DNA from: Pseudovibrio sp. M1P-2-3
GTDB lineage: Bacteria > Pseudomonadota > Alphaproteobacteria > Rhizobiales > Stappiaceae
Length of the DNA stretch: 64,000 bases
NCBI RefSeq assembly: GCF_031501865.1
Contig: NZ_JARRCW010000001.1
Coordinates: 2,873,001 to 2,937,000 of the forward strand
Direction: 5' to 3'
The notes beneath the pieces are model-generated. The model worked only from the letters and a program-made list of their open reading frames with translations. It had not been told where the DNA came from and did no database searches. Positions 23,857 through 63,852 of the stretch are shown in pieces. Made by a program: the position numbers and the translations under genes. The first letter of the stretch is position 1; the number at the start of each line of letters is the position of its first letter.

Positions 23857-23867
23857 TATCGCCCCTC

Positions 23868-28638: not shown

Positions 28639-28731
28639 CAGTTATATACCTAAATGAACTAAAGAATTGGTAAGGTTAATCAAAGCGGTACGTATAAATC
28701 GCAACCACTCAGAAGGCTGAAAGAAAGAAGA

Positions 28732-29229
28732 CTATTCCTTGCTCTCTAACGCATCTATCTCTGAAAGAAGCTTGTTACGCGCTTCCTCGTCCTGCAAAAT
28801 AGCCTCAAGACGCTTTCTGAATGCCGGAATGTTCCCAAGCGGCCCCTTCAAGGCGACAAGGGCCTCACGCAGCTCGATCAGCTTATTTAATTCAGGAACC
28901 TGTTTAACAATCGCATCAGGCTCAAAGTCACTCAAAGATGAAAACTTTAGCTTACTCACCAAGCGAGCATCTTCGTCATCTGACAAGGTATTTTGAACGT
29001 TAACTTCTTTTTCCAGTCCCGCTTCCTGCATCACCGAGCCAAAGGTGTTTTTGTCAACGGAAAGCATGTCACGCTCTTCCAGCGGAGCTTCTTCATCACG
29101 CCCCAGATAGTCGCCAAGCATCACCAAACGAAGAGGCAGCTCTACTTCTTCCTGCTGATCTCCTGTAGCGGGAACATAGCGTATATTAATTCTTTCCTTT
29201 GGAGCGACTGATCCATCTTTACCCGACAT
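28732..29229 (-). CDS. tssB: T6SS contractile sheath small subunit TssB
   Basis: Small sheath subunit that pairs with TssC; the helix near its C-terminus is the usual ClpV contact. The 165-residue protein has the family block RINIRYVPATGDQQEEVELP and MLGDYLGR followed by LSVDKNTFGSVM. I choose ATG 29229, preceded by GGAAAAGG at good spacing, over a TTG six codons upstream. It is the first gene of the 12-gene minus-strand operon and diverges from tssM. Confidence 0.95.
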   Translation of the reverse strand: MSGKDGSVAPKERINIRYVPATGDQQEEVELPLRLVMLGDYLGRDEEAPLEERDMLSVDKNTFGSVMQEAGLEKEVNVQNTLSDDEDARLVSKLKFSSLSDFEPDAIVKQVPELNKLIELREALVALKGPLGNIPAFRKRLEAILQDEEARNKLLSEIDALESKE

Positions 29230-29517
29230 CGCTGTAACCTTTTCCAATCAAGAGAAGTTTCAAAAACACAATTCGAAATGCTCACACAAACCCACAACTT
29301 TTAATTGTAGATAAATATATGAGTGATTCTTTAGTGCATCTTTTGAACATTCATAGATAAAAAAAGCAAGATAAATTTAATCTTGAATATTATTTAATGG
29401 GAAATATAGTAAATCGAATCATCGACGACACCTAGAAGCCAAATTTATTTCATGTAAATACAAACTAGACTCTCTACATGATCTATTTTAGCCTTTAATT
29501 ACATTGCGTATGGAAAA
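29230..29517. promoter_or_regulatory. Divergent promoter region between tssB and tssM
   Basis: An AT-rich stretch of 288 bases with no gene, placed to drive both T6SS operons. I scanned it for a sigma-54 pattern (GG-N10-GC, TGGCAC...TTGC) on both strands because VasH is present and found no good match, so control by VasH here is either indirect or uses a degenerate site. Confidence 0.5.
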
Positions 29518-32500
29518 ATGATATCGAAATTACTTTCTTTCACTATAAAACATTTGAAGAAATTACTAAGCGTAATTAAATCATATTTATTTCTAAGTTT
29601 AATCTTTATCGCCATATGCATTGTTTCTATTTGGTTTTTCGGGCCAAATATTAAGATCGCAAGCATGCGTCCCCTAGCGTCACCGCTCACTAGAATGGTG
29701 GCAATTACGGCGGTGATATTTCTCTGGGGCTTAAATAATCTCATCATTGAGTGGTATCAAAAGCGCAAAAAGAAGTCTGGAACCAAAGAGGTCGAGACCG
29801 TCAAACCACGTGATCCACTCAAGGAAAAAGTTGAGGGTTTTGAGCGTTCATTTCGTGCCGCGATGGGGATTGTCAAAGACAACTGGATGGGGACCGGGCA
29901 AAATAAGGGGCGGCAATCCTTCTATGCTTTGCCTTGGTATGTAGTCCTCGGCTTTCCTGCTGCTGGTAAAACCTCTTTCATTGTAGAGTCAGACCTAAAG
30001 TTCCCTCTCGCACATTTCTTCTCACAGGAAGATGCCAAGCATGTGGAACCTACGGAAGATGTTGATTACTGGGTGACTAATGACGCGATTCTATTTGATG
30101 TGGCCGGGCAGATAATTGGTCATCAGCGGTCTGGGATCAAAAAAGATATCATTGATGAATCCGCGCATATTTGGGATAAGTTTCTCTCTTTACTAAGAGA
30201 ATTCAGACCGAGAAGGCCCATTAACGGCGCTATCCTATGTCTTGACGTTGTGGACCTGATTACCAGTGATCCACAGACGCGTGCAAATAATGCCTCATTG
30301 CTCCATGCGCGCCTTATTGAACTCTCTGAAAAGCTGGGAACCCGTTTTACGGTCCATGTGGTTTTGACAAAATTCGATCTTATTGACGGATTTCAGGAGT
30401 TTATTGCCGGCCTTCGCCCTTCACAAAGAGCAGAGCCTTTTGGATTTGCCTTTGATGTCTACCCGGAAAAAGACGGGAGCTCTTGGCTTAAAGAATTTGA
30501 TGGAGCCTATGAAGGTTTCATGGAGGACATTAACCGGACATTATCGGACAAACTTCTGGATGTACGCTCCACTGATAGTAGAAGACGCCTTTATGCCTTC
30601 GGGAGGCAGCTTTCCGGACTTCGGGAGGTTCTGTTTGAATTCCTCAGCAAGGCTTTTCAATCCGATAACTTTTCCACGGCGCCACAGGTCCGCGGCATAT
30701 TCATGGCTTCCAGTCGTCAGGAAGCCGCACCTATCAATGCTATTCTAACGGCTGCCTCCCATAAGTATGAGATGGATGCCCCTATCCAGCCAGCACACAA
30801 TGGGCGTTCAAAACAGTATTTCGCCCGCGATCTTCTGCATTCGGTTATTTTCCGTGAAGCAGGCCTTGCAGGTGACAATATTCGCATTGAAAGGTCAAAG
30901 CGCTTCTTGTTTGCCGGGTCCGTGTTTGCCTCCACGCTGTTGTTCATAGGCTTTACCAGCTTCTACTGGCTTGCCTACCAAGACAACAAAGCCAAAGCCG
31001 ACGAAGTATTGGTGGTCGCCAACAACTTCCAACAGAAAAAACTGGGCAACTCACAGCATTCACGGGAGACAGGCCAAGCAAGCCAATATCTGGCGGCACT
31101 GGAATCCTTGCGTGATGCCTCCTCCATTTTTGGGGATTACCGTGAAAGCAACTGGGTGACATCCAGCGCAACACTCAATCAGGGCCGAAAAGTCGGTCCG
31201 GAAATTGAGACAGCTTATGTGGAGATGCTGAAAGAGGATTACCTTCCTGATATTGCCGGTTTTATTCGCAACATAATCGTCGAACTCGGGCAAACCCCGA
31301 AGGGCAAAGATAGCAATGAACGGCTGGAAGCTCTCAGGGTATACCTCATGCTTGGCGATTCTGAGCGACGTAATGCCAAGCTGGTATTAGATTGGATGAG
31401 TGAACACTGGCAGGAAAGTTACGAGGGAAACCTTTCGGTTCAACGCTCTCTTCGTAAGCACCTGAAATTTGCTATTGAAACAGCCGGTCTTGAGGCAAAC
31501 CTTGAAGACGATCTAGTGAAAGTCGCGCAAGCCGATCTTCGGGATATTTCACGAGACTTGCGCCTTTATCGAAATATTGAGCAAATTGCTGACCGGCAGC
31601 TGGTCTCTCCCGTAAACCTCCGCAATGACATAGGCCCCGCCTATAATATAATATTTGCCAGAACTGATAGGGAGGCTACTGAAAGCACCCCCGTTACGGT
31701 GAAACCATTCTTTACCAAGGGTGCCTTCCACGATTTCTTTATTCCTCAAAACTCCAAGCTCACCACTGTTGCTATCGAGGATGCGTGGGTTGCTGGAGAG
31801 CGTGAAACGGTTAATTACTCCGATGAGGATCTTGAAGCATTTCGCCGTAAAGTGACCACCAGATATGCAAGCCACTATATTGAAAGCTGGAGCAATGCTC
31901 TCAACCAGCTTGAGATATCAAAATTCCAGAACGTGGATCATGCCGTTGATGTACTTGAGGAAATCACTGGCCCAGAAAACCCGTTGGGTCGCTTGCTGAC
32001 GCGCATTAAGCAAGAAACTGAAATCTATAAATCCAAAACAATTGAACTCTCAGCGGAGCAGGCCATAGACGCCACGCTTCCTTTTGATTTGAACAGGGAA
32101 CAGGGGCTGCGCATTCGCAGAGCCTTCAGTCGCCTTAATGAAATTATTGAGGCCGAGGAAGGGGAAAAGACCTATCTGGAAGATCTGGATGTGGCGCTGA
32201 ACCGCCTCTATGAGTACTTGAAGGAAATCCGGCAGGCTGGAGAGCGCTCTGGAGAAGTGGCCCTTGCGAAGGCCAAGGCAAGAATAAACCTTGAAGGGGA
32301 TGATCCCATCTATGTCATTCGCCGTATTGGTGTCGATTTGCCTGAGCCACTGAACCGCTTCTTTGACACGATCGCCGATGAAAGCTGGAAGGTGGTTCTG
32401 CAAAGCGCCAAAGGTGAATTGCAAAGGGCTTGGAATGATGAAGTCTATGCGGACTATAACCTTTCCATGGCAACTCGTTATCCGTTTCAAAAAGATGCAG

Positions 32501-33108
32501 AGGAAGAAGTCTCACTCGCTGATTTTGAAAGTCTTTTCGGGCCAGGTGGCAAAATCGAGAATTTCTATAAAAATAACCTCATTCAGTTTGTCGAGGAATC
32601 CTCAGGTAAAGCCAAAATTATTGATGGCAGAGAACTGCATATTGAGCCTGAATTCCTTAAACAGTTAAAACGTGCCTTGGAGCTGCGCGAAAGTTATTTT
32701 GACGAAGAAGGCGCCCTCAGCATTGGCTATACCATTGAACCAAAAAGCCTATCAGGAAACGCCAGACGAGCTGTACTCAACATTGAAGGGCAGCTGGTTT
32801 CCTACACCCATGGTCCAAGACGCGCTGCCCGTATTATCTGGCCCAACATAATGTCTGGTGATGCGGAAAGTAAACTCACCATATTCCCTTCAGGACGACG
32901 AAAACCCCAAGTGCTCTCGTTCAAGGGACCATGGTCAGGTTTCCGGATTCTGGATAGTGGGAAAGTCACCGATGTGAGCGGCGGAGAGGTCGATCTTGAG
33001 TTCAATCTGGAATCTACAAAGATCACCTACAAAATCAGACAGGCTGACCATCGCAACCTTGCAGGAAAAAGCCCTTTGGCTGACCTCGTTCTTCCGGCAC
33101 GTATGTAA
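29518..33108 (+). CDS. tssM: T6SS membrane-complex protein TssM (IcmF family)
   Basis: Central inner-membrane channel component of the T6SS envelope complex. The 1196-residue protein has two N-terminal transmembrane helices (about 17-42 and 60-80) and a cytoplasmic GTPase-like domain with Walker A GFPAAGKTS near 145-153. A third transmembrane helix follows (about 461-486, FLFAGSVFASTLLFIGFTSFYWLAY), then a large periplasmic domain ending in the TssJ-binding beta-rich part (PRRAARIIWPNIMSGD region). The intact Walker A suggests nucleotide binding, which not all TssM proteins retain. Its stop shares one base with the next start (TAATG). Confidence 0.96.
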   Translation: MISKLLSFTIKHLKKLLSVIKSYLFLSLIFIAICIVSIWFFGPNIKIASMRPLASPLTRMVAITAVIFLWGLNNLIIEWYQKRKKKSGTKEVETVKPRDPLKEKVEGFERSFRAAMGIVKDNWMGTGQNKGRQSFYALPWYVVLGFPAAGKTSFIVESDLKFPLAHFFSQEDAKHVEPTEDVDYWVTNDAILFDVAGQIIGHQRSGIKKDIIDESAHIWDKFLSLLREFRPRRPINGAILCLDVVDLITSDPQTRANNASLLHARLIELSEKLGTRFTVHVVLTKFDLIDGFQEFIAGLRPSQRAEPFGFAFDVYPEKDGSSWLKEFDGAYEGFMEDINRTLSDKLLDVRSTDSRRRLYAFGRQLSGLREVLFEFLSKAFQSDNFSTAPQVRGIFMASSRQEAAPINAILTAASHKYEMDAPIQPAHNGRSKQYFARDLLHSVIFREAGLAGDNIRIERSKRFLFAGSVFASTLLFIGFTSFYWLAYQDNKAKADEVLVVANNFQQKKLGNSQHSRETGQASQYLAALESLRDASSIFGDYRESNWVTSSATLNQGRKVGPEIETAYVEMLKEDYLPDIAGFIRNIIVELGQTPKGKDSNERLEALRVYLMLGDSERRNAKLVLDWMSEHWQESYEGNLSVQRSLRKHLKFAIETAGLEANLEDDLVKVAQADLRDISRDLRLYRNIEQIADRQLVSPVNLRNDIGPAYNIIFARTDREATESTPVTVKPFFTKGAFHDFFIPQNSKLTTVAIEDAWVAGERETVNYSDEDLEAFRRKVTTRYASHYIESWSNALNQLEISKFQNVDHAVDVLEEITGPENPLGRLLTRIKQETEIYKSKTIELSAEQAIDATLPFDLNREQGLRIRRAFSRLNEIIEAEEGEKTYLEDLDVALNRLYEYLKEIRQAGERSGEVALAKAKARINLEGDDPIYVIRRIGVDLPEPLNRFFDTIADESWKVVLQSAKGELQRAWNDEVYADYNLSMATRYPFQKDAEEEVSLADFESLFGPGGKIENFYKNNLIQFVEESSGKAKIIDGRELHIEPEFLKQLKRALELRESYFDEEGALSIGYTIEPKSLSGNARRAVLNIEGQLVSYTHGPRRAARIIWPNIMSGDAESKLTIFPSGRRKPQVLSFKGPWSGFRILDSGKVTDVSGGEVDLEFNLESTKITYKIRQADHRNLAGKSPLADLVLPARM

Positions 33109-51200: not shown

Positions 51201-52229
51201 TCACACAGCCATGCTTGCCGGATCTCGATAGGTTTCTCCCTTTGTTATCATTGCCCATACTGTTCGCGCCATTTTATTTGCCAGCGCCACAGCGGCCACC
51301 AGAGGAGCTTTTCTTGCCAGCAAGGCCTCAAGCCACGGATGCCGGGGCGCGCCTTTTTTGCGGGCCCACCAAATAACTGTTGTCGCGCCAATAATCAGCA
51401 GCCTGCGAATATCACGCTGGCCGGCTTTAGACGTCTTCCCAAGCCGCGTTTTGCCCCCCGTTGAGTGCTGCTTGGGAACCAGGCCCAGCCAAGCGGCGAA
51501 ATCCCGCCCGCGCTTGAACGTGGCCATTGCGGGGGCAAAAGCCTCTATCGCTATCGCGGTGATTGGGCCGAGCCCGGGAATGGTTTGCAGAATTTTTGCC
51601 GTACCACTGTTTCTGGCCAATGTCTGAAGTTTTTTCTCAAGCACCTTAATCTTTTGCGTATGCTCGCCAATCTGTTCAAAGTACAACCTCGCCATTTCAT
51701 GAACAATCTCAGGAAGATGTCCCCCATCCGCTTCAAGACGCTGCCTCAGCTTCTCAACATGGACCGCGCCATGAGGGACGACCAGTCCATGTTCGGCCAA
51801 ATGCGCCCGCAGCGCGTTAATCATTTGGGTTCGCTGGCGCACCAGAATCTCACGGGTGCGGAACACCATCGAACGGGCCTGTTGAAGTTCGCTTTTGACC
51901 TCCACAAAGCGCATGGTGGGACGGGCGGCGGCTTCGGCAATGGCAAAAGCATCGTTGGCGTCGTTTTTCTGGCGCTTAACAAAGGGTTTGACGTAAATCG
52001 GCGCAATCAAGCGAACCTCGTGCCCCAGCTTTCCCACCTCTCTTCCCCAATAATGGGAACTCGCACAAGCCTCCATTGCGACAAGACAAGTTGGCAGCTT
52101 ACCCAAAGCCTTCAAAAAACCCGCACGAGAAACCTTCTTTGAAAATACGACATGTCCGTCTGCAGCGGCTCCATGCAGTTGAAAAACGTTCTTTGATAAA
52201 TCAACTCCAACAACGGCAAGGTTCTTCAT
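51201..52229 (-). mobile_element. IS110-family transposase, apparently intact
   Basis: A full-length 342-residue DEDD-type transposase of the IS110 family. The N-terminal RuvC-like domain shows VGVDLSKNVFQLH (first Asp) and KRQKNDANDAFAI (Asp-x2-Asp pair), and the C-terminal Tnp20 domain has IPGLGPITAIAIEAF and LGLVPKQHSTGGKTRLG with a Ser/Thr-Gly catalytic region. No frameshift is seen. IS110 elements lack long terminal inverted repeats and encode a bridge RNA beside the gene; exact ends were not defined here. It separates the radical SAM gene from the autotransporter. Confidence 0.93.
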
Positions 52230-52526
52230 GGTTGCGTCCCTCTTTTTCCAAAAGCTACACTCTGCTCAGTATTGCAGAAATGCGCCGGGAGAGGCATCCA
52301 TTCCATCACTATCGATTAATTTTACCTAGTTACTCCTACCTAAAGACTTATCTCTTTAATTTTTCAACACGAACACAACAACAATCCCATAGAGCTATAG
52401 AAAAATTAAATTATACAGAGAATTCTATTGCATATTAATACAATTAATATTTAGCTATTTACGATTATAATTATTTTATACTTAATTTAATAAATATTAA
52501 ACGTGGCATATACGGATTACAACACC

Positions 52527-54884
52527 ATGAAAAAAATGAATTATACTTACAGAATAATTTTTTTCTCATGTTCATTTCCCATAGTTAGTTTGAGCATTCC
52601 TTTTACGGCTGCATATAGTGACGATCTGAGTGTGGGGCAGCCGGGAGGCGAGACTTACAGTGTTCTTCAAGGCACCGAAACATATGATACCATAACGATT
52701 TCCCCAACGGATCAGGATCTGGGTATAATTAATGTAAAAGGCACCACTAGCGTTTTGGTGGCAAATACCGGGTTTGAAGTTGGTCAAGCGGGCAATGGAA
52801 CTTTGAATTTGAGCGGCGGTGGCGGTGTGGAGACCACGACACTCATTGCAGCTGGTGGTGCAAGTTCCTTGGGAACTGTAAGTATTGATGGCACAGACAG
52901 TAAGCTAACTGTATCTTCCGGGTTGCAAATCGGGCGGTCTGGCAATGGAATATTGAGCCTGACCAACAGCGGCAGCCTGCAGATCCCTTCACTGGAAATT
53001 GCCGTAAATGCTGGTTCAGTGGGTGCGATGAACATTGGAGGAGATGCCACTAGCTCCGCAATCGCCCCAGGGATTATCAATGACGATGCCACAGTTAGTT
53101 TTGGTCAAGGGACAGGCGAAATTGTATTTAATCATACCATAAATGATGCGGGCATTTCCTTTGCCAATGATGTTGCAGGCACAGGCACTATATTGGCAAT
53201 CCAAGGAACAACGACCCTATCAGGTACGATAGGGCCAGAAGTTACACTCGCACTACAAAGTCCAGCCGATGCCATCGATGGTGACGAAGTAAGGATATAC
53301 GTCACAGGAACTTTTAAAGGCGGTGTAATGTTGTTTGAAGATGTCATTGACAGTACCTTTCTGGGAGGTACTGGAACTGTTGGTTCTGTTGTTATAAGTA
53401 GTAGTGGAACAATAGCCCCTACGATGCCCGATGGAACTTATGGAGCTTTAACCATATCCAATGGTGCAAGTTTCAATAACCTATATTATGAAGTGCAATT
53501 AGATTCATCTGGAGGTTCGGACACGCTTCACTTTGAAAGTGGTGAAGTCATTTTCAAAGATGGTATATTTCTAACTATTAATCCAAGGGGAGATTCTGCA
53601 GCCTATCCATTGACAGTGCAATATCCTATTATGACATCGAATACACCAGACCTCTCTGGCGGAAGCCTCGCAGACTTACAAGTGAACTCCGATTTATTGA
53701 CCCAAGTTGTTTTTAGTACCAATGCCATGACAGTGTCTGTCAGCAATGAAAGTGTCCCGGTAACCAGTGTCGCTCGCACCCACAATCAAAGGGCGGTCGC
53801 AACAGCAATTGACGAATTACGTGTACAAGCGCAAGAGCAGTTTGTGGGGCGGGATCTCGATACAACAGAACGATTAGACATTTACTCCCCCCTTTACACC
53901 AACCTCCTGCTGCTCTCTTTGAATGAAATTCCATTTGCCTTCGAGCAGATGGGAGCAGAGATTTACGGTAGTATGTCCACAGCACTGCTCAATGATACGC
54001 ATTATCTGCGCGAGGCTGTCTATGATCAAATGACAACCAATACTCAAGGTCCTATGGTGTGGGCGCAAGGCTACGGAGCTTGGGGGAGATGGAGCGGAGA
54101 TGGCAATGCGGCGGAGATGACCCGTGATCTTGGAGGGTTCTTTGTCGGGCTGGAAGGGCCTGTGGCTGGAGAACTTGATGAGGCCTTACGGGTGGGGTTT
54201 GTGGCAGGTTATGGGCATGCAAACTATGACGTGCACCACCGCTCCTCTTCGGGCTATTCGAATCTTGTACATTTGGGCGCTTATGGCACTTGGCAACGGC
54301 AAGAAACTCACCTTTTACTGGGGGCAGCCTATGCCGCCAGTTTTAATGACGTGGACCGTACGGTTCGCTTTGGGGATATTTATGAGGATCCCTCATCCAA
54401 CTACCTCACCAATCTCATTCAACTGTTCGCAGTGGGGCGCTATGACTGGGACACCAGTTTGGCGACACTCTCTCCTATTCTTGGGCTTGCTTTTGTGTCT
54501 CAAAGTGCGCCAACGGTGAACGAAAAAGGAGGCATCACGGCCTTACGGGTGCGCTCCGATACCTCCAGCCTATTTTACACCACGTTGGGGGCCGAGATTT
54601 CCAAAGATTGGCTGGTTGCAGGACGCAATGTTGAGACCCGCCTGTCTACCGCTTGGCAACATGTAGCGGGCAACACCAACAGCAGTACCGATATCCTAAT
54701 GCAGGGAACCAACCAATATCAACAGCTCTTCGGTGTTTCCTCACAGCGCGACCAACTGCTTGTAGACGCTACAGTTCAGGCCGATCTATCCTCAAGGGCT
54801 TCCTTGAGCTTATCCTACGCCGGTCAATATGGCTCTGATACCTATGACAATGCTTTTCAAGGCCAAGTAAAACTTCAATTTTAA
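52527..54884 (+). CDS. Autotransporter (type Va) with repeat-type passenger
   Basis: Secreted surface protein of 785 residues. After a signal peptide (about 1-27, MKKMNYTYRIIFFSCSF...) comes a beta-helix passenger with repeats such as VGQAGNGTLNLSGGGGV and IGRSGNGILSLTNSGSL, which match the T5SS/PEP-CTERM-associated repeat type. The C-terminal autotransporter barrel (about 500-785) has WAQGYGAWGRWSGDGNA and GGFFVGLEG and a final Phe. I use ATG 52527, because an in-frame GTG 24 bases earlier lengthens the signal peptide for no reason. Function may be adhesion. It lies just after IS110. Confidence 0.9.
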   Translation: MKKMNYTYRIIFFSCSFPIVSLSIPFTAAYSDDLSVGQPGGETYSVLQGTETYDTITISPTDQDLGIINVKGTTSVLVANTGFEVGQAGNGTLNLSGGGGVETTTLIAAGGASSLGTVSIDGTDSKLTVSSGLQIGRSGNGILSLTNSGSLQIPSLEIAVNAGSVGAMNIGGDATSSAIAPGIINDDATVSFGQGTGEIVFNHTINDAGISFANDVAGTGTILAIQGTTTLSGTIGPEVTLALQSPADAIDGDEVRIYVTGTFKGGVMLFEDVIDSTFLGGTGTVGSVVISSSGTIAPTMPDGTYGALTISNGASFNNLYYEVQLDSSGGSDTLHFESGEVIFKDGIFLTINPRGDSAAYPLTVQYPIMTSNTPDLSGGSLADLQVNSDLLTQVVFSTNAMTVSVSNESVPVTSVARTHNQRAVATAIDELRVQAQEQFVGRDLDTTERLDIYSPLYTNLLLLSLNEIPFAFEQMGAEIYGSMSTALLNDTHYLREAVYDQMTTNTQGPMVWAQGYGAWGRWSGDGNAAEMTRDLGGFFVGLEGPVAGELDEALRVGFVAGYGHANYDVHHRSSSGYSNLVHLGAYGTWQRQETHLLLGAAYAASFNDVDRTVRFGDIYEDPSSNYLTNLIQLFAVGRYDWDTSLATLSPILGLAFVSQSAPTVNEKGGITALRVRSDTSSLFYTTLGAEISKDWLVAGRNVETRLSTAWQHVAGNTNSSTDILMQGTNQYQQLFGVSSQRDQLLVDATVQADLSSRASLSLSYAGQYGSDTYDNAFQGQVKLQF

Positions 54885-55180: not shown

Positions 55181-55477
55181 CTACCCCCCAATCAAGCACA
55201 TGGGGCTACCCAAAATTACTGTGCCACCATGGGAGCAGCTATCTCCAATGCGCACGGCTGGCAGGTTTCCTATCAGACACGACGTACTTCCCTTCACAAT
55301 AACATCAGGTGGCCCGACACACGTTGCTGTGGAGGTGGCAGTTGCTGCTGGCAGACTGCCGATTAGAACCATCGGCTGGCCGGGAGGCAGGATAGGACCG
55401 CCAACATGCGGTACAATCCCAGTTACCATAGGGCAGACATGCATATCCGTAATTCGGGAAGCTGGTAATCCTGGCAT
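55181..55477 (-). CDS. PAAR-domain T6SS spike-tip protein
   Basis: A 98-residue PAAR protein expected to cap the VgrG spike. The sequence is made of short glycine- and proline-rich strands (PGLPASRITDMHVCPM, GPPDVIVKGSTSCLIGNLPAVRIGDSCSHGGTVILG) typical of the family, with conserved Cys and His residues for metal binding at the tip. There is no fused toxin domain, so any effector would be carried as a separate protein. It follows the unknown small gene by one base and lies two genes downstream of vgrG. Confidence 0.9.
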   Translation of the reverse strand: MPGLPASRITDMHVCPMVTGIVPHVGGPILPPGQPMVLIGSLPAATATSTATCVGPPDVIVKGSTSCLIGNLPAVRIGDSCSHGGTVILGSPMCLIGG

Positions 55478-56044
55478 CTATTCGTTCACTCCCGGCCATG
55501 CTCCATTTGCAACATCCAGTGCGCACCTGTGAGCCGTTTGAAGAAGGACTTTGATGTCTTCCTGTGTTTGACAAGGGATAAGAGCAATTGCCCCAAGTAT
55601 CGCCTTCGCGTGCAAATAGGCAGGCGGAAGAACCACCGGACCCGATGAAGCCGCGATACTTCCCGACCCATTCCATGCAACCGCATAGCATAACCAGCCT
55701 GAAGGCCCTTGTGTTCCCAGCTTATCGCCAGTTTCCAGCAGGGTACGCCGCTTCTTCTCCTCCGGGCTTTTTACCCACTCCCTCACTCTTTGGCGCGTGG
55801 CGCGGGCATTGGAAATATCGTTGACACCCATTTCATCCTGAACCGACAGCGCCCAGCAAATACCTTCTCGTGGAGGCAGTGCATGCCCAACAAAATTCAC
55901 ATAGTCAGCTAGAAGCCCTTCTTCCAGCAGCTTTTCCATGACCTGCAAGGGAGAGTATTCTGGCGTTATCAGTTCACCTGCATTCTCCCCAAGCTCAAAG
56001 CGATCAAGAATGCTCCTTGCGTCTTCATAGGGAATTTTTTTCAT
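55478..56044 (-). CDS. Unknown soluble protein between VgrG and PAAR genes
   Basis: A 188-residue protein with no signal peptide or transmembrane helix, rich in Ala, Glu and Leu in helix-forming stretches (EDARSILDRFELGENAGEL, LQVMEKLLEEGLLADYVNFVGHALPPREGICWALSVQDEM) and a Pro/Gly-rich loop near 120-135. Genes of this size and place recur in vgrG-PAAR loci as adaptors, chaperones or immunity-like proteins; I do not recognise it beyond a possible match to DUF6931-type proteins, which I cannot confirm. Stop and PAAR start are adjacent, so the genes are co-translated. Confidence 0.62.
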   Translation of the reverse strand: MKKIPYEDARSILDRFELGENAGELITPEYSPLQVMEKLLEEGLLADYVNFVGHALPPREGICWALSVQDEMGVNDISNARATRQRVREWVKSPEEKKRRTLLETGDKLGTQGPSGWLCYAVAWNGSGSIAASSGPVVLPPAYLHAKAILGAIALIPCQTQEDIKVLLQTAHRCALDVANGAWPGVNE

Positions 56045-56101: not shown

Positions 56102-58066
56102 TCAGTTAATCATTGCTGGCATACCTTTGATCATTAATGGCCCCTGACTGTTAACCTCTGCCAACGGCCCTTTGATGCTTACCTGAGCCTGCGCCTCTAC
56201 AGCCACTTGAAGTCCTTTCACTTCGGTCTTTGTGTCTGCTTCTAATTTAGCGGTCAGGCCCTTCATTTCCAGTGTTCCACTTGACTTTGCTGAGACTTTC
56301 GATTGACCGGAAACAGAGACCGTTGTTGCTGATATTTTTATTTCCGAGGAGCTCATTTCTATTTTGGAGCTTCCCACCTTCAAGGTCAGTTTCGTATCCG
56401 CTGAAAGCTCGATTTCTTTTGCTTGTAAGCTGTCGGTATTGGTAGTTTCTACACTACGTTCACTGGTTTTCAGCTCTGTTTTGCTTTCCACCTCGGTCAA
56501 GAGATCCTTGCCAATAACAATTTTAGAAGATTCTCCAACCGTGGTTGTTTCCAGTTTCTTGATATTGCGATTCACATTCTCTTCCACAAGCAGCTCAAAG
56601 TCTTTTGCAGCGCGTAAACCAATCAGTTCTGCACCCACCTTGTCATCAAATTCCAGCTCATTGGGCAGATCTCCCAATTGAGATCGAATACCGGACTTGG
56701 TTGTATTTTTGGCTATAAAGGGCGGCTTATTCTTTTCGTTGTAAATCTGACCGCTGATGATTGGTAGATCTGGATCACCATGCAAAAAGCTAACCAGAAC
56801 CTCATGCCCAACTCTTGGCAGGAACTGTGTCCCAGTGCCATTACCCGCATAAATTTCAGCAACTCTGATATATCCTGAAGTGTCTTCAGTCCTACCCGAA
56901 ATATCCCAGAAAAACTGAAGCTTTACCCTCCCCTGCTCATCACAGGCTGGTTCTCCAACTTTCGGCCCAACAACAACCGCATTGTGTACACCAGCTATCA
57001 GTGGTTTTGGTATATATTTCGGTACTATAGGCGTGCCTTCCGGAACCGCTTCAATTGTTGCCTGAAGGGCAAGGCCACGCTCCATTTTATAGCTCAGAGC
57101 TGTAATAATCAGGGTTTGCGGGAGCTTACCCTCAACATTGGAGTTCAGTTTGATGGCCTGTCCAATGTGGAGGGATGGGTGCTCACAGGTGCCTCGTACG
57201 CGTACTTCATAACCTTGAACGGACTGGGTCATTTTTCCAAGAGTTACGCTTGAAAGCGTGTCGCGGGGAAGCGGAAGAAAACGATAGACGACAGGCTTTT
57301 CTATAGTTTTAAGCGAAGAGGACGGTTTGGGGCCTGCCTTTAATGTCTTGGCAGTATCCGCATCATAAGTGGCAAGCTCTGTGGTTGCAGGGCGCATGAC
57401 TTGGCTATGCTCCAAAGTTATAGCCTGATAAGCGCCCGGAGCGGTAACACCCAGCATGTCTTCCAACTCCACGGCTCCCCCTTGCGCAGGAAAGGGTTTT
57501 GATGGGTCGTGTATAACCAAGGCTTCTGGGTCACTGCCATCTGAAACAAAATAAACCAGTCCCTCTTCCGCCAGAATCCGCTGGCAAAAGGACAAGTCGT
57601 TCTCGTTATACTGAATGCAGGTTTCCCGTTTTCCCGAAGTCTTGGCACCGCTCGTTTTCACCTGACCTATGCCGTTCCGCTCAAACACCTCCCCCCAAAT
57701 ATCCAAGGTGCTTTTGTTCTGGTAAATTGCGCAATGCTCTCCCAGCTCCAGAACGCCCAGTTTGGGCCGTACGACAATCGAAAGCTGCGTTAAACCAGTA
57801 GAATCGATAATACGATCTGCCTGAAACACCAATCCGGCAAACTTGCGCGGTATAACGCCTTTGGAATACGCAGTCTCAACAAAACTAAGCTCTGCCTTTT
57901 GCCCCACCAGCTCCTGAAGAGACTGGCCCGTATCGAGCGCAAGAATATTATAGGTGGGAACCTCACAAATACGCTCTTCCAGCTGCACACCTTGCACAGC
58001 GAGCTCCTGCCCATCAACGGATAAAATAGAAATCTGATCACTGTTATACTCTAGGCTCATCGACAT
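56102..58066 (-). CDS. vgrG: T6SS spike protein VgrG (TssI)
   Basis: Trimeric puncturing spike. The 654-residue protein has a gp27-like N-terminal region (about 1-370) and the gp5 OB-fold signature FLPRVGHEVLVSFLHGDPDLPIISGQIYNEKNKPPF near 425-460. The C-terminal part is a long beta-strand repeat region (KLTLKVGSSKIEMSSSEIKISATTVSVSGQ...) ending in MPAMIN. No enzymatic extension follows. The start is ATG 58066 after AGAGGTG; an upstream in-frame GTG is less likely. Confidence 0.94.
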   Translation of the reverse strand: MSMSLEYNSDQISILSVDGQELAVQGVQLEERICEVPTYNILALDTGQSLQELVGQKAELSFVETAYSKGVIPRKFAGLVFQADRIIDSTGLTQLSIVVRPKLGVLELGEHCAIYQNKSTLDIWGEVFERNGIGQVKTSGAKTSGKRETCIQYNENDLSFCQRILAEEGLVYFVSDGSDPEALVIHDPSKPFPAQGGAVELEDMLGVTAPGAYQAITLEHSQVMRPATTELATYDADTAKTLKAGPKPSSSLKTIEKPVVYRFLPLPRDTLSSVTLGKMTQSVQGYEVRVRGTCEHPSLHIGQAIKLNSNVEGKLPQTLIITALSYKMERGLALQATIEAVPEGTPIVPKYIPKPLIAGVHNAVVVGPKVGEPACDEQGRVKLQFFWDISGRTEDTSGYIRVAEIYAGNGTGTQFLPRVGHEVLVSFLHGDPDLPIISGQIYNEKNKPPFIAKNTTKSGIRSQLGDLPNELEFDDKVGAELIGLRAAKDFELLVEENVNRNIKKLETTTVGESSKIVIGKDLLTEVESKTELKTSERSVETTNTDSLQAKEIELSADTKLTLKVGSSKIEMSSSEIKISATTVSVSGQSKVSAKSSGTLEMKGLTAKLEADTKTEVKGLQVAVEAQAQVSIKGPLAEVNSQGPLMIKGMPAMIN

Positions 58067-58216
58067 AAATAACACCTCTAGAGGAACTGAAACTGGTATA
58101 TGCTTGGCGTTATTTACCGCTATTCAGCGGTGTGCCTGCCCTATTCGTAAAAACAATTTTGCAATCCAGCTGAAGTCTTCGCCTGACCTCCATTCAACTA
58201 TTGCAGGAGCTTCTCC

Positions 58217-60307
58217 TCACACAGGAATTCGGCCAGCTTCTCTCTTCGTGGACCGTTTCACTATTAAGGTTAGAACCGCCATCAAAACACCTGTTCCGGC
58301 AATGATTGCTCCCAAAATAGCCGCCGTATCTCCATAGTTAAAAGTAACAAGCATTGCTCCCACAACAACAGGCCCCGCAACACTGCCAATACGCTCGAAC
58401 ATACGCAGGAAACTGAGGGCCCCAGTCCGCGATACATCGGGGCTAAGAGCTGCTGCATCCATGGCCGCCACAATTAGAGGGGCCTTAAGGAAGGCATGCG
58501 CCAGTCCGAGGGCTGCAACCACTGCCAATACAGCGGCCACAGAAGCACTTTGATAAAGACCGATCAGAACAATCCCTGAGATAATCGTTGCACAAATAAC
58601 CACCCAAAGGTTTTTCCCGAGTTGATCTGAAAATCGCGATGCAAGCGGACTAATGGGAATAATGATCAAGGAATAGAGCATCATGACCCTCCCAATTTCT
58701 GACTGGCTGGCTTCAAGGCTGGCCAGATAAATTGGAACAAAGAAATATAGGAAGCCGGTCAGGACAATTTTTGCTGGAATGGCGCAAAACAACAAGATCA
58801 GAAGGAAGCTTGGGTTACGCAGTAGCGCGCCAAACGGGTTAACTGACGATGCTTTTGCCTTGGATTTTTGGGGCTCTGAAGAGGGTAAATTGCCATGCAG
58901 CATTTTCCATCCCATAACACCGGCAACAAGACTTAGGACTGTTGCAATCATGAATACGGGCTTGTAGCCCAACCAATCAGCAAAAATGGCACCTGTTGCC
59001 GTGCCGCACATGGTCGCCGCCATAAGTACACCGACAAATGCTGCCATGGCACGGGCCCTATTTTCTCCCGTAGCAACAGCAGCAATATAACTTTGGCAAC
59101 TAATCGTGATAATGCCATACCCCACCGCTGTGAGTGATCTTGCAAGTACAATGTCATTGCCGCTTTGAGCCAGAGCGCAGTACACATAGCCACCGATCGC
59201 TGGAACAAGCCCCACAAGATACAAAGTCTTATTGCCAAAACGATCAATAAGACCAGCTGCAAAGGGAGTAATGGCTGCTATCACAAACATAAAAGCAGAG
59301 ATGGGTAAGCCCATCATAATATCCCTATCAAACAGGTCGGTGGGGCTGTAGTATTCAGCCACGAACAAAGGCATGAATGACTTTTGCAACTCTTCAGCAA
59401 AACAGAACACAAATAACGGAATTCTGGCGTCGATAATACGGGCAGGCTTTGGAGGAGATGCAGCAAACAAAGCGTGCTTTTCAATAAAGGCTTGTATCTT
59501 GGATTTTGCTGTGCCAGCACCTTCCAGCGCAGCTGTGGACCGCCGTCTCAAAGCATCGTTTTGTTTATTCAAGACAGCAATAAAGCGTCCTATCCGTCCA
59601 CGTTGATTTGCGCCTTGATAGAAGTTAAAGTTTCCCCGCGCACGCATTGAAAGAACACTATCAATCTGCCGCAAGGGATATGTAACTGATGCGTTGAGGT
59701 AAACAACAACCACCTCAATGGCAATGAGGCAAACTGCTATGAAAATGACGAGGGTATCAAAAAAGACATTCGCCATTTTATTATCTACATAATTGGCATC
59801 AATGACCGTTTCCAGTTTGGCAACAGTGCTCCCCGAGACAGATATATCCGCATAAACCCTCATACTCTCTTCGCCCGCACCCGTAATATTCGACCATATG
59901 TCGGCAAGCGAGCCAAACGTATTTTTCACTCTCCCCCAAAACTGTTCGCTATCGCTAGAGGGAATGGTCTTTGCAAATGAAGAGACCTCTGCGTTTGAGA
60001 AGTTACTCTTAGAGAGGCCGGATGCGGAAATAAGTGAAATGCGCTCAATCTCGGGGTTTTCCAACTCGAGTTCGCTCAGGTACGTATCAAGCCCACGAAT
60101 TTTGTCGAACGGAATACCAATAGACGTGGCATATTCAATATTCTGCTTAACGGAAGATGTAACAGATTCAGCCTTGGAGATGAGATAGGGGTGCAAACCA
60201 CTGTTAAATTCGGTCAAGGTCACAGCAATACTGAGCAAAGCGGCAATGCCCATGGCAACTGACATTGTTAGAAAGTAGCGCGTAGAAAAACCACTTAAGA
60301 TTGCCAT
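58217..60307 (-). CDS. MFS transporter fused to an N-terminal membrane sensor and HAMP domain
   Basis: A 696-residue fusion. Residues 1-205 look like a receptor: transmembrane helix (about 9-31), periplasmic domain of about 150 residues, second helix (about 183-205), and then a HAMP-like linker (about 206-265, PLRQIDSVLSMRARGNFNF). Residues about 290-690 are a complete MFS transporter of 12 helices with the helix 2-3 loop motif DRFGNKT. Drug- or solute-exporter type is likely but the substrate is unknown. It overlaps by 13 bases with the upstream sensor gene. No histidine kinase, GGDEF or MCP output domain is present; the transporter sits in the output position. Confidence 0.85.
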   Translation of the reverse strand: MAILSGFSTRYFLTMSVAMGIAALLSIAVTLTEFNSGLHPYLISKAESVTSSVKQNIEYATSIGIPFDKIRGLDTYLSELELENPEIERISLISASGLSKSNFSNAEVSSFAKTIPSSDSEQFWGRVKNTFGSLADIWSNITGAGEESMRVYADISVSGSTVAKLETVIDANYVDNKMANVFFDTLVIFIAVCLIAIEVVVVYLNASVTYPLRQIDSVLSMRARGNFNFYQGANQRGRIGRFIAVLNKQNDALRRRSTAALEGAGTAKSKIQAFIEKHALFAASPPKPARIIDARIPLFVFCFAEELQKSFMPLFVAEYYSPTDLFDRDIMMGLPISAFMFVIAAITPFAAGLIDRFGNKTLYLVGLVPAIGGYVYCALAQSGNDIVLARSLTAVGYGIITISCQSYIAAVATGENRARAMAAFVGVLMAATMCGTATGAIFADWLGYKPVFMIATVLSLVAGVMGWKMLHGNLPSSEPQKSKAKASSVNPFGALLRNPSFLLILLFCAIPAKIVLTGFLYFFVPIYLASLEASQSEIGRVMMLYSLIIIPISPLASRFSDQLGKNLWVVICATIISGIVLIGLYQSASVAAVLAVVAALGLAHAFLKAPLIVAAMDAAALSPDVSRTGALSFLRMFERIGSVAGPVVVGAMLVTFNYGDTAAILGAIIAGTGVLMAVLTLIVKRSTKREAGRIPV

Positions 60308-61080
60308 AGCTCAGCCACTTCCTTCTTCTTTTCGTCTGGTATCCCCTTAGGACTGCTAAGCGCCTGCAGAGCAGATTGATAGACCTTGTTTCCCTCCTCA
60401 ATCTTTACACTGAGTTCATCCCTATCGGGAGCTTCCAGTCTTTTCAGTGCTTGAGGGTTAAGGGCGCGATAGACCCTTGTTACGGCGGAAAACTCGAAGA
60501 CAACAAAAGGAATGAGCACCAAGAAAATCACAGTGAAAATAGCCAGATAGGCTGTGGCCAACTTCATACTTGTTTTCCAGATAGCATTTTGGAGGTCAGC
60601 AGTTTGCGTGGAAACTATAACAGCGCCCATAATAGAATTAGCTGAATCCAACAGAAGTCGACCGGAATACAACATATTCCCCCGATCAATAGTCGATAAT
60701 TTTTCTCCGGACCCAAAAACTCGGCGCATAACGGCTTCGTGATCTTCAACCGGCAAGGCCTTGCTTCCACTGGAGGTAATTGGGCTACCAATTGGAGACA
60801 CCACCATTATCTGAAAAATGGAAGAATCCCGTTCTCGTTCACGCTCAAGAAGACCTTGAAGCCCGCTCATCTCCTCCATAGCAAGCCCGGTTCCCTCAGC
60901 ACGCTGAACAAGAGTATCAACGGAACCTGCCACCACCTGAAGCCGGGAGGTTGTGGCTTCCGCCACCAATGCTCTGAATTTCAAGTGGGCAAGAACGCCT
61001 TGAAGTATGAGGATTGCAGCTATAACCACGAGAACCGAAAAAATGATCCTCCAGTAAAATCCATTAATTAACGTCTTCAT
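60295..61080 (-). CDS. Orphan membrane sensor subunit with HAMP-like end
   Basis: A 261-residue protein with a transmembrane helix (about 10-31), periplasmic domain with coiled-coil-like DTLVQRAEGTGLAMEEM and strand segments IFQIMVVSPIG and GRLLLDSANSIMGAVIVS (Cache-like), a second helix (about 178-203) and a short cytoplasmic tail with no catalytic output. It mirrors the receptor half of the downstream MFS fusion and overlaps it by 13 bases, so the two proteins may form a heteromer. I choose ATG 61080; a TTG four codons earlier follows GGGG and is possible. Confidence 0.72.
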   Translation of the reverse strand: MKTLINGFYWRIIFSVLVVIAAILILQGVLAHLKFRALVAEATTSRLQVVAGSVDTLVQRAEGTGLAMEEMSGLQGLLERERERDSSIFQIMVVSPIGSPITSSGSKALPVEDHEAVMRRVFGSGEKLSTIDRGNMLYSGRLLLDSANSIMGAVIVSTQTADLQNAIWKTSMKLATAYLAIFTVIFLVLIPFVVFEFSAVTRVYRALNPQALKRLEAPDRDELSVKIEEGNKVYQSALQALSSPKGIPDEKKKEVAELWQS

Positions 61081-61438
61081 AACTCTACGCAATCCCCAGC
61101 GAAATTGAAGTATTCTGACGAATCGATTAAATGATGATTTTATTTAGGTATTTTTGATGACACAAGAATTAATATAAATTCAGGATAGCAATAATTATTA
61201 AATTAACACACATCCGACAGAATCATTAATAAAAATCAGATATTCAAAATTCAACTAACATTGAAAAAGTATTTTAAGTTTAAATATTTCATGTATTACT
61301 TAATTTATATCTATCATATTGATTTTATATTTCTATTGACATTACCATTACTACCAAGATAAATCATTAGTTACTTTATAGAATCAGAAAATAAGCATAT
61401 TTCCGCATATTCACTTTCATTCATTCAAGAGTGTTTTT
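61081..61438. promoter_or_regulatory. Divergent intergenic region between the sensor genes and the solute-binding gene
   Basis: About 360 bases, extremely AT-rich, without a gene. It must contain promoters for both the sensor-MFS pair and the solute-binding protein/tssA/hcp transcript. No GG-N10-GC sigma-54 pattern was found on inspection. Confidence 0.5.
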
Positions 61439-62449
61439 ATGTATGTGTTAAAGTATATTGTGTCCGCTTTACTTATATTTGCCGCAGCACACTCACAACT
61501 AATAGCAAAAGAAGCCAATTCGGATACATATAACGTACATATGATTGTCTGGCGCGGTTGCGAGACAGCATGTAGAGGATTTATCCGTTACTTTGACGTT
61601 CGCCGTTTACCCGTAAACGTAACCGTTACAGACGTTGCACGGGATAAAACGAAACTTCCCGAGATTAAAGCCCGTTTGCAGGAAGAAAAGCCTGATCTTG
61701 TCGTCACATGGGGCACAACGGTGACGCGTTCTATCCTAGGAACAATTTCGGACTATGGAACGCAAACGGCACTAGGTGATATCCCTTCCCTGTTTATGAT
61801 CGTGGCCGATCCGGTACGCTCTGATATCATTGAAAACTACAACACAACTGGCAGACCATGGCTGACGGGCGTGCACAACCGCATTAAGGAAGAAGTTCAA
61901 CTCAAACAAATTTTCGAGTATTATCACCCTAATCTCCTCGCTGTCATTAACAGTCCCTCTGAATTAAACTCGCGCCAGAACACTCAAAAACTTGCAGCAC
62001 TATCAAAAAGTATGGGCTTTGAGCTTTTATCGCTGGACTATGAGATGGGCGATGATGAAAAGCCAGTAGCCTCCAGTATATCAGATAGGATTGCTCAAGC
62101 CAAAGCTATGGGGGCCGATGCAATCTATGTTGGCTCCAGTTCTTATAACCTTGAGAACCGGAGAGAGTTCACCGCTGCTGCCCTTGAACATAAGCTGCCG
62201 GTTTTCAGCGCCTATGAACAGATGGTGCGCGACGGTATGGCATTAATGTCCGTCTCCAACAGTTACGCCAATGTGGGTAAACTTGCAGCCTCTCAGGCAG
62301 ACCAAATTCTACTGGGAAAACAGATGCCCGGCTCTTTGCCTGTTAAGGCACTAGACCGCTTCTCGATCTTCATCAATATGAAGGCAGCGAAGCAACTGGA
62401 CTTGTACCCTCCTCTGCCTCTTGCACTTGTAGCAGAGGTGGTTCAATGA
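61439..62449 (+). CDS. Periplasmic solute-binding protein (ABC_sub_bind family)
   Basis: A 336-residue secreted binding protein of the PF04392-type ABC_sub_bind family. It has a signal peptide (about 1-24, ending near IAKE) and two Rossmann-like lobes, with EEKPDLVVTWGTTVTRSIL near 80-100 and the hinge segment KAMGADAIYVGSSSYN near 220. There are no ABC permease or ATPase genes beside it. It diverges from the sensor/MFS pair and its stop codon overlaps the start of the tssA gene (ATGA), so it is co-transcribed with T6SS genes. Ligand unknown; this family includes amino-acid binding members. Confidence 0.82.
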   Translation: MYVLKYIVSALLIFAAAHSQLIAKEANSDTYNVHMIVWRGCETACRGFIRYFDVRRLPVNVTVTDVARDKTKLPEIKARLQEEKPDLVVTWGTTVTRSILGTISDYGTQTALGDIPSLFMIVADPVRSDIIENYNTTGRPWLTGVHNRIKEEVQLKQIFEYYHPNLLAVINSPSELNSRQNTQKLAALSKSMGFELLSLDYEMGDDEKPVASSISDRIAQAKAMGADAIYVGSSSYNLENRREFTAAALEHKLPVFSAYEQMVRDGMALMSVSNSYANVGKLAASQADQILLGKQMPGSLPVKALDRFSIFINMKAAKQLDLYPPLPLALVAEVVQ

Positions 62450-63852
62450 AAATTGAAGAGCTGAAAACGCCTATCTCCCAAGAAAATAAAGGCGGCATCT
62501 ACCTCAAAGGCGATCGCAGCACTTACCGCGCCCTGCGCAATACCTTCAATGCTGGGCAGTCAGCTTATAGATCCCTATCAGAATCGTCGGAGTCTCTTGC
62601 TGACCGGATACTTGAAGAGACCAACCGTCAAGCATGGGAAGCCCTGAGTGAGCTGGCCGAAAAAACCTTATTGGAGATTTCGAAGGATCTGGAGATCCTT
62701 TCCTGGTTTACGGCTGCACAAGTTCACAGCACCGCCCCCCTGCCGAATTTACGCGATTGCTTGAGTGTTCTGCTTCACCTGACAAGAGAGGGCATAGATT
62801 GGCTACAACCGATCCCTCCCATTGAAAAACTCAAGGCGGAAGGCGAAAGTGAGCAAGCCGAAGAAATTGCCGCCTTGAAAATTCGCGCCTTCACGCAGCT
62901 CTTTGGGGAGGTGGAAGGCTCGGGCCTTTTATATGCCCCCCTAACAAACATTGGGCTAGTTGCAGATATTTCCTATGGGCAATTCCTGATTTTTGAAAAG
63001 AAAGGAAATATCGACGAGCTTAGGGAGGTGGTTTCCCAGAGTATTTCCTCTGAAACAGAGGTCTTGACGGAAAAAATCAAGGCCCTGCAGGAGATCGAGA
63101 AACTTGTCAGTGAACTAGACGCACTGATTAAAAGCTATGCTCAACCCCATAAACAAGCACCACCTCTGCTCGGGTATTTTCTACGTCATATAAAAGAGCT
63201 CCTTCGTGCGATTGGCGAACTTGTTAAAACAACCGGTTATCGCTGGCCAAGCTCGGAAGAGGCCGAAGAAACAAAGGACAAGACTGCGTCCGATGCTGAA
63301 AATATAGATGCATCAAAAGCGCTTGATCTACCCGCTTCTATACAATTAACCAGCGCACATACAATGGGCACTGCTCCTATATCAACACGGGGTGATGCGT
63401 TGGCGGCCATAGCCGATCTTGCCGAGTACTTTCGTAAATTCGAACCACATTCGCCCATTTGCCTGCTGCTGGACCGAGCGGTCAGATGGGGCGGTCTATC
63501 CGCTGGTGAACTCTATCAGGAAATTTTGAGTGAGGGTAGCGTGGGCATGGCGCAGATGGCGTTGATGACGGGTCTTGAAAGTCAAGGATTTTCTCAGGCC
63601 TACCAACGCAAACAAGCTGCAGCGCCTCAAAGTGTCGAACACCCAACACTTTCCGATTACAGCGCTGCCATTCCTCAGCCCAAACACAAGCAGAACAAGC
63701 CGAAGCCAACGCAGCAGACACCGGCCAAGCCTGAAAAGCAAGTACAAGCTCAAGTTAGAAGTGAGCCCCCCAAAAAACAGGATACCGAAATCATCGAAAC
63801 TCAACCGGAAGCAAACAAAAAGGAATTGGAATTAGCGAGTTTCGAATGGTGA
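62446..63852 (+). CDS. tssA: TssA-type T6SS protein, second copy (ImpA family)
   Basis: A 468-residue cytoplasmic baseplate/sheath-cap protein. The N-terminal ImpA domain (about 1-130) begins with the family GDRSTYRALRNTFNAGQSAYR region, and the C-terminal domain (about 300-385) carries the ImpA block RGDALAAIADLAEYFRKFEPHSPICLLLDRAVRWGGLS. A Lys/Pro/Gln-rich tail (about 400-455) follows and is not typical. It overlaps the solute-binding gene by four bases and precedes hcp by 32 bases. The 33108 gene is a second TssA-type protein with a different C-terminus. Confidence 0.85.
   Translation: MKIEELKTPISQENKGGIYLKGDRSTYRALRNTFNAGQSAYRSLSESSESLADRILEETNRQAWEALSELAEKTLLEISKDLEILSWFTAAQVHSTAPLPNLRDCLSVLLHLTREGIDWLQPIPPIEKLKAEGESEQAEEIAALKIRAFTQLFGEVEGSGLLYAPLTNIGLVADISYGQFLIFEKKGNIDELREVVSQSISSETEVLTEKIKALQEIEKLVSELDALIKSYAQPHKQAPPLLGYFLRHIKELLRAIGELVKTTGYRWPSSEEAEETKDKTASDAENIDASKALDLPASIQLTSAHTMGTAPISTRGDALAAIADLAEYFRKFEPHSPICLLLDRAVRWGGLSAGELYQEILSEGSVGMAQMALMTGLESQGFSQAYQRKQAAAPQSVEHPTLSDYSAAIPQPKHKQNKPKPTQQTPAKPEKQVQAQVRSEPPKKQDTEIIETQPEANKKELELASFEW

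Follow-up and report, generated by a model that had tools for sequence, protein, structure and literature searches.

We analyzed three genes in a 64,000-nucleotide stretch of the genome of Pseudovibrio sp. M1P-2-3 (contig NZ_JARRCW010000001.1, positions 2,873,001 to 2,937,000; hereafter the window, whose own numbering is used unless stated otherwise), which encode a sensor-HAMP-MFS fusion protein (FUS), a partner sensor (PART), and an ABC_sub_bind-family binding protein (SBP). FUS occupied 58217..60307 on the reverse strand as a single open frame of 696 amino acids with an ATG start and no internal stop. PART, also on the reverse strand and starting with ATG, occupied 60295..61080 (261 amino acids); a TTG start at 61092 was possible as well (60295..61092, 265 amino acids). 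The end of PART and the start of FUS shared 13 bases (60295..60307, reverse strand). A first-pass annotation made from the letters alone had claimed both the unbroken receptor-HAMP-like-MFS frame and, before it, a second receptor half overlapping by 13 bases, and both held. SBP was encoded on the forward strand at 61439..62449, divergent from and head to head with PART-FUS. By comparison, the set consists of an export-type SBP, two homologous Cache-type membrane sensors, and a HAMP-family segment joined to a DHA1-like MFS domain.

Domain structure of FUS

The AF2 model of FUS had a mean pLDDT of 89.7 and a pTM of 0.86. The periplasmic sensor at residues ~34–186 (59750..60208, reverse strand), with strands at 87–94, 149–157, and 160–169 in the model, was homologous to the Cache domain of PART; the N-terminal third of FUS (first ~290 residues) had no Pfam match at E≤1. 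The HAMP domain was placed at residues ~207–262 (59522..59689, reverse strand) from hhalign and the model helices, in which a helix-connector-helix directly followed the second transmembrane (TM) segment, with helices at 171–223 and 238–263 and a 14-residue break. FUS 204–262 aligned with 62 SpoIIE-HAMP segments in hhalign with a probability of 96.6 (E 6e-10), and the probabilities of six control segments and 60 column shuffles were at most 3.8 and 2.9, respectively. The histidine kinase 9trk_A matched FUS residues 195–261 with a whole-sequence E of 4.6e-7, no single stretch being below 0.001 alone. Among relatives, Pfam HAMP scored 20.9 bits in L031 (cut-off 25) and 16.1 bits in L127, the only one of the 11 tandem proteins described below. 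These results supported a HAMP-family segment in FUS, identified by profile-profile comparison and through relatives, Pfam missing the window protein. The HAMP-like segment of the first-pass annotation thus held as a HAMP relative; of the domains expected there, MFS_1 and, by fold in PART, Cache were found, and Pfam HAMP on the window protein was not.

The MFS domain at residues ~293–690 (58238..59431, reverse strand) is, from MFS_1 and Foldseek matches, DHA1-like and complete. MFS_1 (PF07690) matched residues 299–619 with an E of 2.3e-46. In Foldseek, the best 50 of 434 PDB chains (E≤0.001) were led by VMAT1/VMAT2, NorA, and MdfA, with a best E of 1.9e-11, and the top-ranked chain, VMAT1, gave a TMt of 0.84, indicating a 12-TM MFS fold. 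Among 78 aligned FUS MFS domains, the signature residues R390, Q405, K513, and D561 were kept in 77, 76, 77, and 74, respectively, and R635, E638, and R639 in all 78. Residues of the MFS motifs A, B, and C were also kept: G358 in 75/78, R390 in 77/78, and G435 and G439 in 78/78. The fold and family motifs were common with DHA1 drug:H+ antiporters and VMAT (NorA, MdfA, VMAT2), whereas FUS has an N-terminal sensor-HAMP part and its genes are linked to SBP and signalling genes. An assembly error or hidden stop, which had been raised as a possible cause of the join, was rejected, since the same kind of join occurred in a 62%-identical paralogue in the same genome, in four other species of the genus, and in 106 non-redundant loci.

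PART and SBP across loci

At the order level, FUS matched in 29 of 397 genomes (survey A1, E≤1e-40); survey A4 (E≤1e-50) gave matches in 36 of 385 genomes at the class level and in 12 of 398 at the phylum level. The own genome is counted, and some matches are to the MFS alone; surroundings were read in 44 of the 70 matched genomes of other genera. Named genomes, scanned with a window-like query, contributed 73 loci, from Vibrio, Photobacterium, Marinobacterium, Oceanospirillum, Rhodobacteraceae, Magnetospirillum, Roseomonas, Azospirillum, Rhizobium, and others; because of the query, this sample favours loci linked to the type VI secretion system (T6SS). The locus set comprised 119 loci (the window, L006–L010, and L031–L143), or 106 after removal of MFS regions at least 95% identical. 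Judged from these matches, the PART-FUS-SBP set is widespread in Pseudomonadota. Three of five hold-out loci repeated PART-FUS-SBP, and the other two (L146 and L147) carried a stand-alone MFS.

PART had two TM segments, a single Cache sensor domain by fold, and a short cytoplasmic tail; its sole Pfam match was at chance level (DUF7248, E 0.97). FUS 1–205 and PART 1–210 aligned in hhalign with a probability of 99.2 (E 2e-19), and their periplasmic parts alone with 98.5, the controls (MFS, shuffled, and reversed) reaching at most 0.8. In a profile search PART lay directly upstream of FUS in 93 of 95 simple-fusion loci, so that the adjacent pair sought in other genomes was found, although the count is partly by construction, the profile having been built from 54 of the partners it recovers. 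An independent rule (two TM segments plus spacing) placed PART upstream in 88 of the 95. The profile found no partner in two loci, L092 and the contig-end fragment L043. By their estimated starts (n=88), the two genes overlapped in 51 loci and lay no more than 50 bases apart in 31.

Eleven loci encoded tandem fusions of 796–877 amino acids with two pairs of TM segments ahead of the MFS, and an upstream PART match was found in none of them. In three Vibrio-type tandem proteins, unit 1 resembled PART (E 7.7e-28 in hhalign) more than the N-terminal part of FUS (2.6e-12), whereas unit 2 resembled the latter (4.8e-21) more than PART (1.3e-7). Six further tandem proteins showed the same order more weakly, with values for PART and the FUS N-terminal part of 1.4e-17 and 2.2e-13 in unit 1 and of 7.7e-10 and 8.2e-14 in unit 2, respectively; the comparison covered nine of the 11 proteins, L055 and L070 being left out. 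Because the tandem proteins join a PART-like and then a FUS-like unit and have no separate PART, they may be read as a Rosetta stone for a heteromer. The homologous halves, the gene overlap, and the natural gene fusions together support a heteromeric sensor formed by PART and FUS.

SBP had a hydrophobic N-terminus and matched PF04392 with 83.6 bits (E 1.9e-23; family cut-off 25.9). Its profile matched the solved structures 3lkv (E 1.4e-8), 6hni (3.9e-7), and 3lft (4.3e-4); against NF041285 it scored 76 bits, far under the cut-off of 390. An SBP profile, iterated on the very loci counted, matched in 118 of the 119 loci, and the lone miss, L090, was a contig ending 227 bases past FUS. In 101 of 106 loci SBP was the next gene after FUS and shared its strand, the exceptions being the window (divergent), L056, L070, L090, and L092. 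By a simple rule, a hydrophobic stretch came after the start codon in 101 of 105 SBPs, 39 of them with twin arginines, and four did not fit the rule. The sequence signature of ABC ATPases was absent from 102 of 106 loci and lay at least 3.9 kb away in the remaining four (permeases were not searched); in the hold-out L147 an ATPase-like gene was seen by eye ~6 kb from SBP. We therefore rejected, by context, a role of SBP as part of a TrpXYZ-type ABC transporter, a point in which it differs from the TrpX-type proteins 3lft, 3lkv, and 6hni of the same PF04392 family. The solved relatives are TrpX-type proteins, whose ligands are aromatic amino acids. Some clusters contained genes of amino-acid chemistry, namely GNAT (above the cut-off in L036, below it in L045 and L063), alanine racemase (L036), and formyltransferase (L096, L102, and L109). 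These relatives and neighbours fit an amino-acid-like ligand of SBP and prove nothing. The formyltransferases were Formyl_trans_N proteins of ~300 amino acids directly after SBP (L096 11116–12024, L102 11026–11937, and L109 11020–11910).

No NCBIfam model reached its cut-off on FUS, PART, or SBP, and neither a sensor-HAMP-MFS protein nor a PART-FUS-SBP set was found among the papers listed in searches of the open-access PMC literature, preprints excluded; the suggestion that the system is undescribed stood within that scope. In two papers on Pseudovibrio T6SS clusters (PMC4811931 and PMC3806328), the words MFS and HAMP do not occur in the main texts. The near-obligate SBP, the T6SS link, and the stand-alone MFS relatives that keep SBP and an output without the receptor go beyond what the first-pass annotation contained.

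Neighbouring signalling genes and T6SS clusters

A SpoIIE phosphatase was encoded in the fetched flank of 60 of 106 loci: in 43 it lay on the SBP strand, downstream of SBP, in 12 it diverged from PART, and in 5 it was placed otherwise. Pfam listed HAMP in four of five SpoIIE proteins scanned, one of them below the cut-off, and scanned neighbours included STAS (L102) and HATPase_c_2 (L129 and L062; fused in L116). From these domains, SpoIIE with STAS and HATPase_c_2 is a predicted partner-switching system. Among tandem-type loci, four were accompanied by PAS-GGDEF-EAL proteins (L048, L049, L058, and L059, the EAL being cut by the contig end in L059), one by a PAS histidine kinase (L047), and three by T6SS genes (L053, L054, and L127). 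In three loci (L031, L094, and L117), a protein of 690–730 amino acids with 13–15 predicted TM segments lay between SBP and SpoIIE, showing by eye two sensor-like units followed by a many-helix core; that of L031, the one scanned, had no Pfam match. In L067 (1895–5864), an NMT1-like binding protein, a LysM secretin, and a pentapeptide protein followed the set in place of SpoIIE.

At least two different T6SS genes were present in 24 of 106 loci, and in 6 of 40 survey-drawn loci from other genera, which are a less biased sample. T6SS labels were assigned by blastp against window proteins named by eye; for TssB, C, E, F, G, J, K, L, and M the names were confirmed by Pfam, which in TssH showed AAA/ClpB domains only, and the name fha is by eye. 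Four more loci outside the 24 had one T6SS gene type each: the single tssH match of L065 could be ClpB, yet TssK lay 25 kb off on the contig, and L031, L094, and L117 owed the label to one VgrG match each at 23–24% identity. TssK was present in 20 of 45 FUS genomes searched. Of 15 TssK-bearing genomes outside the genus, eight (G380, G087, G1005, G795, G701, G547, G493, and G631) had it on the FUS contig at a distance of at most 35 kb, with an estimated expectation from genome length of 1–2% per TssK. The placement of FUS in T6SS loci varied (before tssA, before vgrG, divergent from vgrG, or between tssH and tssK), and L032 and L045 had SpoIIE plus several T6SS genes in one locus. On a quick LG+G4 tree of 105 rows (L043 dropped), for which the program warned of long branches meeting, the provisional numbers of changes were at least 8 for T6SS, 11 for SpoIIE, and 2 for the tandem form.

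Two kinds of deviant loci were found. A degenerate second FUS-like protein (FUS2) occurred in the 12 loci with divergent SpoIIE (L033–L042, L050, and L061) and in L063 and L064, which had no SpoIIE in the flank; it abutted the SpoIIE frame in L034, L035, L036, L039, and L042, with a PART-like gene ahead of it in L036 and L039. Among 14 aligned FUS2 proteins, K513, Q405, and R639 were kept in none, E638 in none (D in 2), R635 in 1, R390 in 10, and G435 in 14; D561 and G358 fell in gaps in all, which depends on the alignment. The other kind, L146 and L147, had a FUS-like MFS without the sensor (profile E 8e-81 and 9e-55, respectively), accompanied by two and one ABC_sub_bind proteins, respectively, and by a receiver-SpoIIE protein in both, together with a hybrid histidine kinase in L147. 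Because these two loci keep SBP and an output without the receptor, the core looks like MFS, SBP, and output, with the Cache-HAMP sensor added on. Apparently broken copies were also seen, with SBP in two frames in P. denitrificans (L009/L077) and a short FUS frame in a Vibrio maritimus assembly (L089).

In the window itself, no signalling enzyme adjoined the set, only T6SS genes. SBP overlapped by 4 bases a tssA-like gene (62446..63852, forward strand; ImpA_N E 3.2e-12), which scored 98.8 bits against TIGR03363, below the cut-off of 160.85. In the DNA past the window (L145), this gene was the first of a T6SS cluster, followed by hcp, tssB, tssC, a second tssC-like gene, a tssE-like gene (Pfam gp25 slightly below the cut-off), tssF (identified by blastp), tssG, a gene for an AAA/ClpB-type protein where tssH would stand, one for an exported SBP_bac_3-like protein, fha, tssJ, tssK, tssL, and tssM. 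The SBP_bac_3-like protein between tssH and fha (L145 11574–12293; genome 2946573–2947292) scored 17.9 bits (cut-off 26.4), and in Vibrio-type clusters such a protein stood right after SBP (L053 5581–6303 and L127 10521–11258, both over the Pfam cut-off); it is a candidate second binding protein within the T6SS cluster. On the other side, downstream of FUS and on the same strand, lay vgrG (56102..58075, reverse strand; TIGR03361 E 3.1e-90), adjoined by a DUF6931 protein (55478..56044, reverse strand; PF22011 E 1.1e-30) and a PAAR protein (55181..55477, reverse strand; PF05488 E 1.2e-19).

The SBP-headed cluster was distinct from the other T6SS cluster of the window at ~15–34 kb (Pfam). The genome had three TssK genes, within window 16828–33108, within genome 2935446–2954286, and around genome 3560703–3579019; only the two scoring lower against PF05936 lay beside a PART-FUS-SBP set. 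The second set, ~643 kb away, shared 62, 48, and 64% identity in FUS, PART, and SBP, respectively; its genes ran PART-FUS-SBP-tssA on one strand, ~14 kb from the third TssK. FUS was present in 5 of 16 searched genomes of the genus, the own included. The four others had PART, FUS, and SBP in an operon whose fetched flanks held no recognised T6SS gene, although in one of these genomes (G001) TssK lay 29 kb off on the same contig as FUS. Elsewhere in the window, an IS110-like transposase (by eye; 51201–52229) lay beside an autotransporter gene (Pfam; 52503–54884) preceding the vgrG group, and 20–8491 held denitrification genes by eye, with cd1 nitrite reductase-like and nor-like genes and a Crp-type regulator.

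A proposed sensory input module and its alternatives

Standing at the head of a T6SS cluster, the set probably serves to signal the presence of an extracellular small molecule. In the reading we prefer, to which we would give an even chance, PART-FUS-SBP is a three-component, SBP-fed sensory input module (transceptor) for a neighbouring output, in this genome the T6SS. PART and FUS would form the heteromeric sensor; SBP loaded with a small, perhaps amino-acid-like ligand would dock on the periplasmic face of the sensor, of the MFS, or of both; and the signal would pass from TM2 through HAMP to the MFS. The conformational state of the MFS, possibly still transporting, would then be read by the output encoded beside the module. 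In many lineages this output would be a SpoIIE partner-switching phosphatase, in some a GGDEF-EAL protein or histidine kinase, and here the T6SS cluster, where an external compound would most likely license or tune the T6SS headed by the set. The MFS looks like a relay or receptor because a separate signalling protein or T6SS adjoins the module in many loci.

Several observations weigh against this reading. The ligand, its docking, and the coupling to an output are drawn from gene order, and Pfam HAMP (PF00672) had no match at E≤1 in the window FUS. The PART tail, which could supply the second half of a dimeric four-helix HAMP bundle, was not clearly HAMP-like (43%); against FUS it reached 67% with TM2 and 40% without, and against the SpoIIE HAMP 3–8% (a shuffle control was dropped because 1 of 10 column shuffles scored 99.9%, a four-column hhalign artefact). 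SBP of the window is divergent and outside the FUS operon. Neither SpoIIE nor T6SS was found in the fetched flank of 23 of 105 tree rows, including Pseudovibrio L007, L008, and L010; these rows include the loci with GGDEF-EAL or a kinase, short contigs, and operons in which no output was recognised. TssK was missing from 25 of 45 FUS genomes, so the T6SS is one use at most, and R390, Q405, K513, D561, R635, E638, and R639 are kept in 74–78 of 78 MFS domains, as in a working transporter.

Because these residues are kept, gated transport, the main alternative, retains some probability; we consider it unlikely, though it may be partly true. Here the MFS would itself be the output, an exporter or importer opened and closed by SBP and the Cache-HAMP sensor, with the neighbours only co-regulated. 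HAMP precedes the MFS, which sits at the position occupied by the output in receptors, the signature residues are conserved, SBP stays with the MFS when the receptor is missing (L146 and L147), and some operons have no recognised output gene (L007–L010). However, separate signalling proteins adjoin many loci, the degenerate FUS2 adjoins SpoIIE, and the stand-alone MFS lies near a hybrid kinase and receiver-SpoIIE proteins. Of the ligand-gated MFS with a heteromeric sensor proposed in the first pass, the sensor thus gained support from homology, overlap, and gene fusions, and the transporter as output lost ground to the separate outputs. It is improbable that the Cache halves are merely a docking platform for an SBP-fed secondary transporter, with no signalling by FUS. 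Secondary transporters that take substrate from a binding protein are known in the TRAP and TTT systems, and SBP was found in 118 of 119 loci with the ABC-ATPase signature absent near it in 102 of 106; yet HAMP, a signal-relay domain, is present, output genes lie nearby, and the closest MFS structures are drug and amine antiporters. Very improbable is a chance neighbourhood, in which an ordinary MFS bears a decorative N-terminus and the T6SS link stems from hitch-hiking. Most T6SS-linked loci do fall in one tree clade, and the window-like query of the named-genome scan favours them. Against this reading, PART is complementary between simple and tandem fusions (93/95 versus 0/11), three fusion loci among five hold-outs repeat PART-FUS-SBP, and 8 of 15 TssK-bearing genomes from other genera have TssK no more than 35 kb from FUS.

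Read as a sensory input module, the set would be a variant of transporter-like receptors, with a fair chance of forming a separate class. UhpC of the UhpABC system, an MFS protein, is not known to have a fused Cache/HAMP sensor, a partner sensor, or an SBP. According to the relevant passages of PMC8871633, UhpC acts as receptor for a separate signalling protein. As with UhpC, a signalling partner is encoded beside the MFS in the FUS family (SpoIIE in 60 of 106 loci, GGDEF-EAL, and kinases); the outputs differ, being SpoIIE, GGDEF-EAL, kinases, or T6SS. CbrA (SLC5-STAC-PAS-kinase) likewise joins a transporter and a signalling part in one polypeptide, as described in the same passages (PMC8871633), but it has a transporter of another family, first in the chain and followed by a kinase, whereas in FUS sensor-HAMP comes first, the MFS last, and there is no enzyme. 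Unlike in Cache-HAMP kinases and chemoreceptors (WalK, KinD, CitA, DcuS, and Tlp3), HAMP of FUS leads into an MFS, and a second sensor half without output is added. LuxPQ and TorT-TorS couple a periplasmic binding protein to a membrane sensor, a combination also found here, but in L146 and L147, where the sensor is absent, SBP still accompanies the MFS core.

It is possible, though rather doubtful, that these proteins represent a new class of membrane signalling machine: an MFS transceptor that depends on SBP, is coupled through HAMP, carries a heteromeric Cache sensor, and was recruited repeatedly to partner-switching phosphatases, c-di-GMP enzymes, kinases, and T6SS. In the boldest form, the DHA1-like MFS would export a signal made by the cluster enzymes (GNAT, alanine racemase, or formyltransferase), SBP and Cache would read it outside, and HAMP would feed back on the exporter, giving a self-limiting cell-cell signal that arms the T6SS. 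If the sensory-input reading is true, it would name the input for many SpoIIE partner-switching operons and for a T6SS subtype of marine bacteria, it would provide a case of a HAMP domain addressing a transporter, and it would place the MFS among the secondary transporters associated with periplasmic binding proteins.

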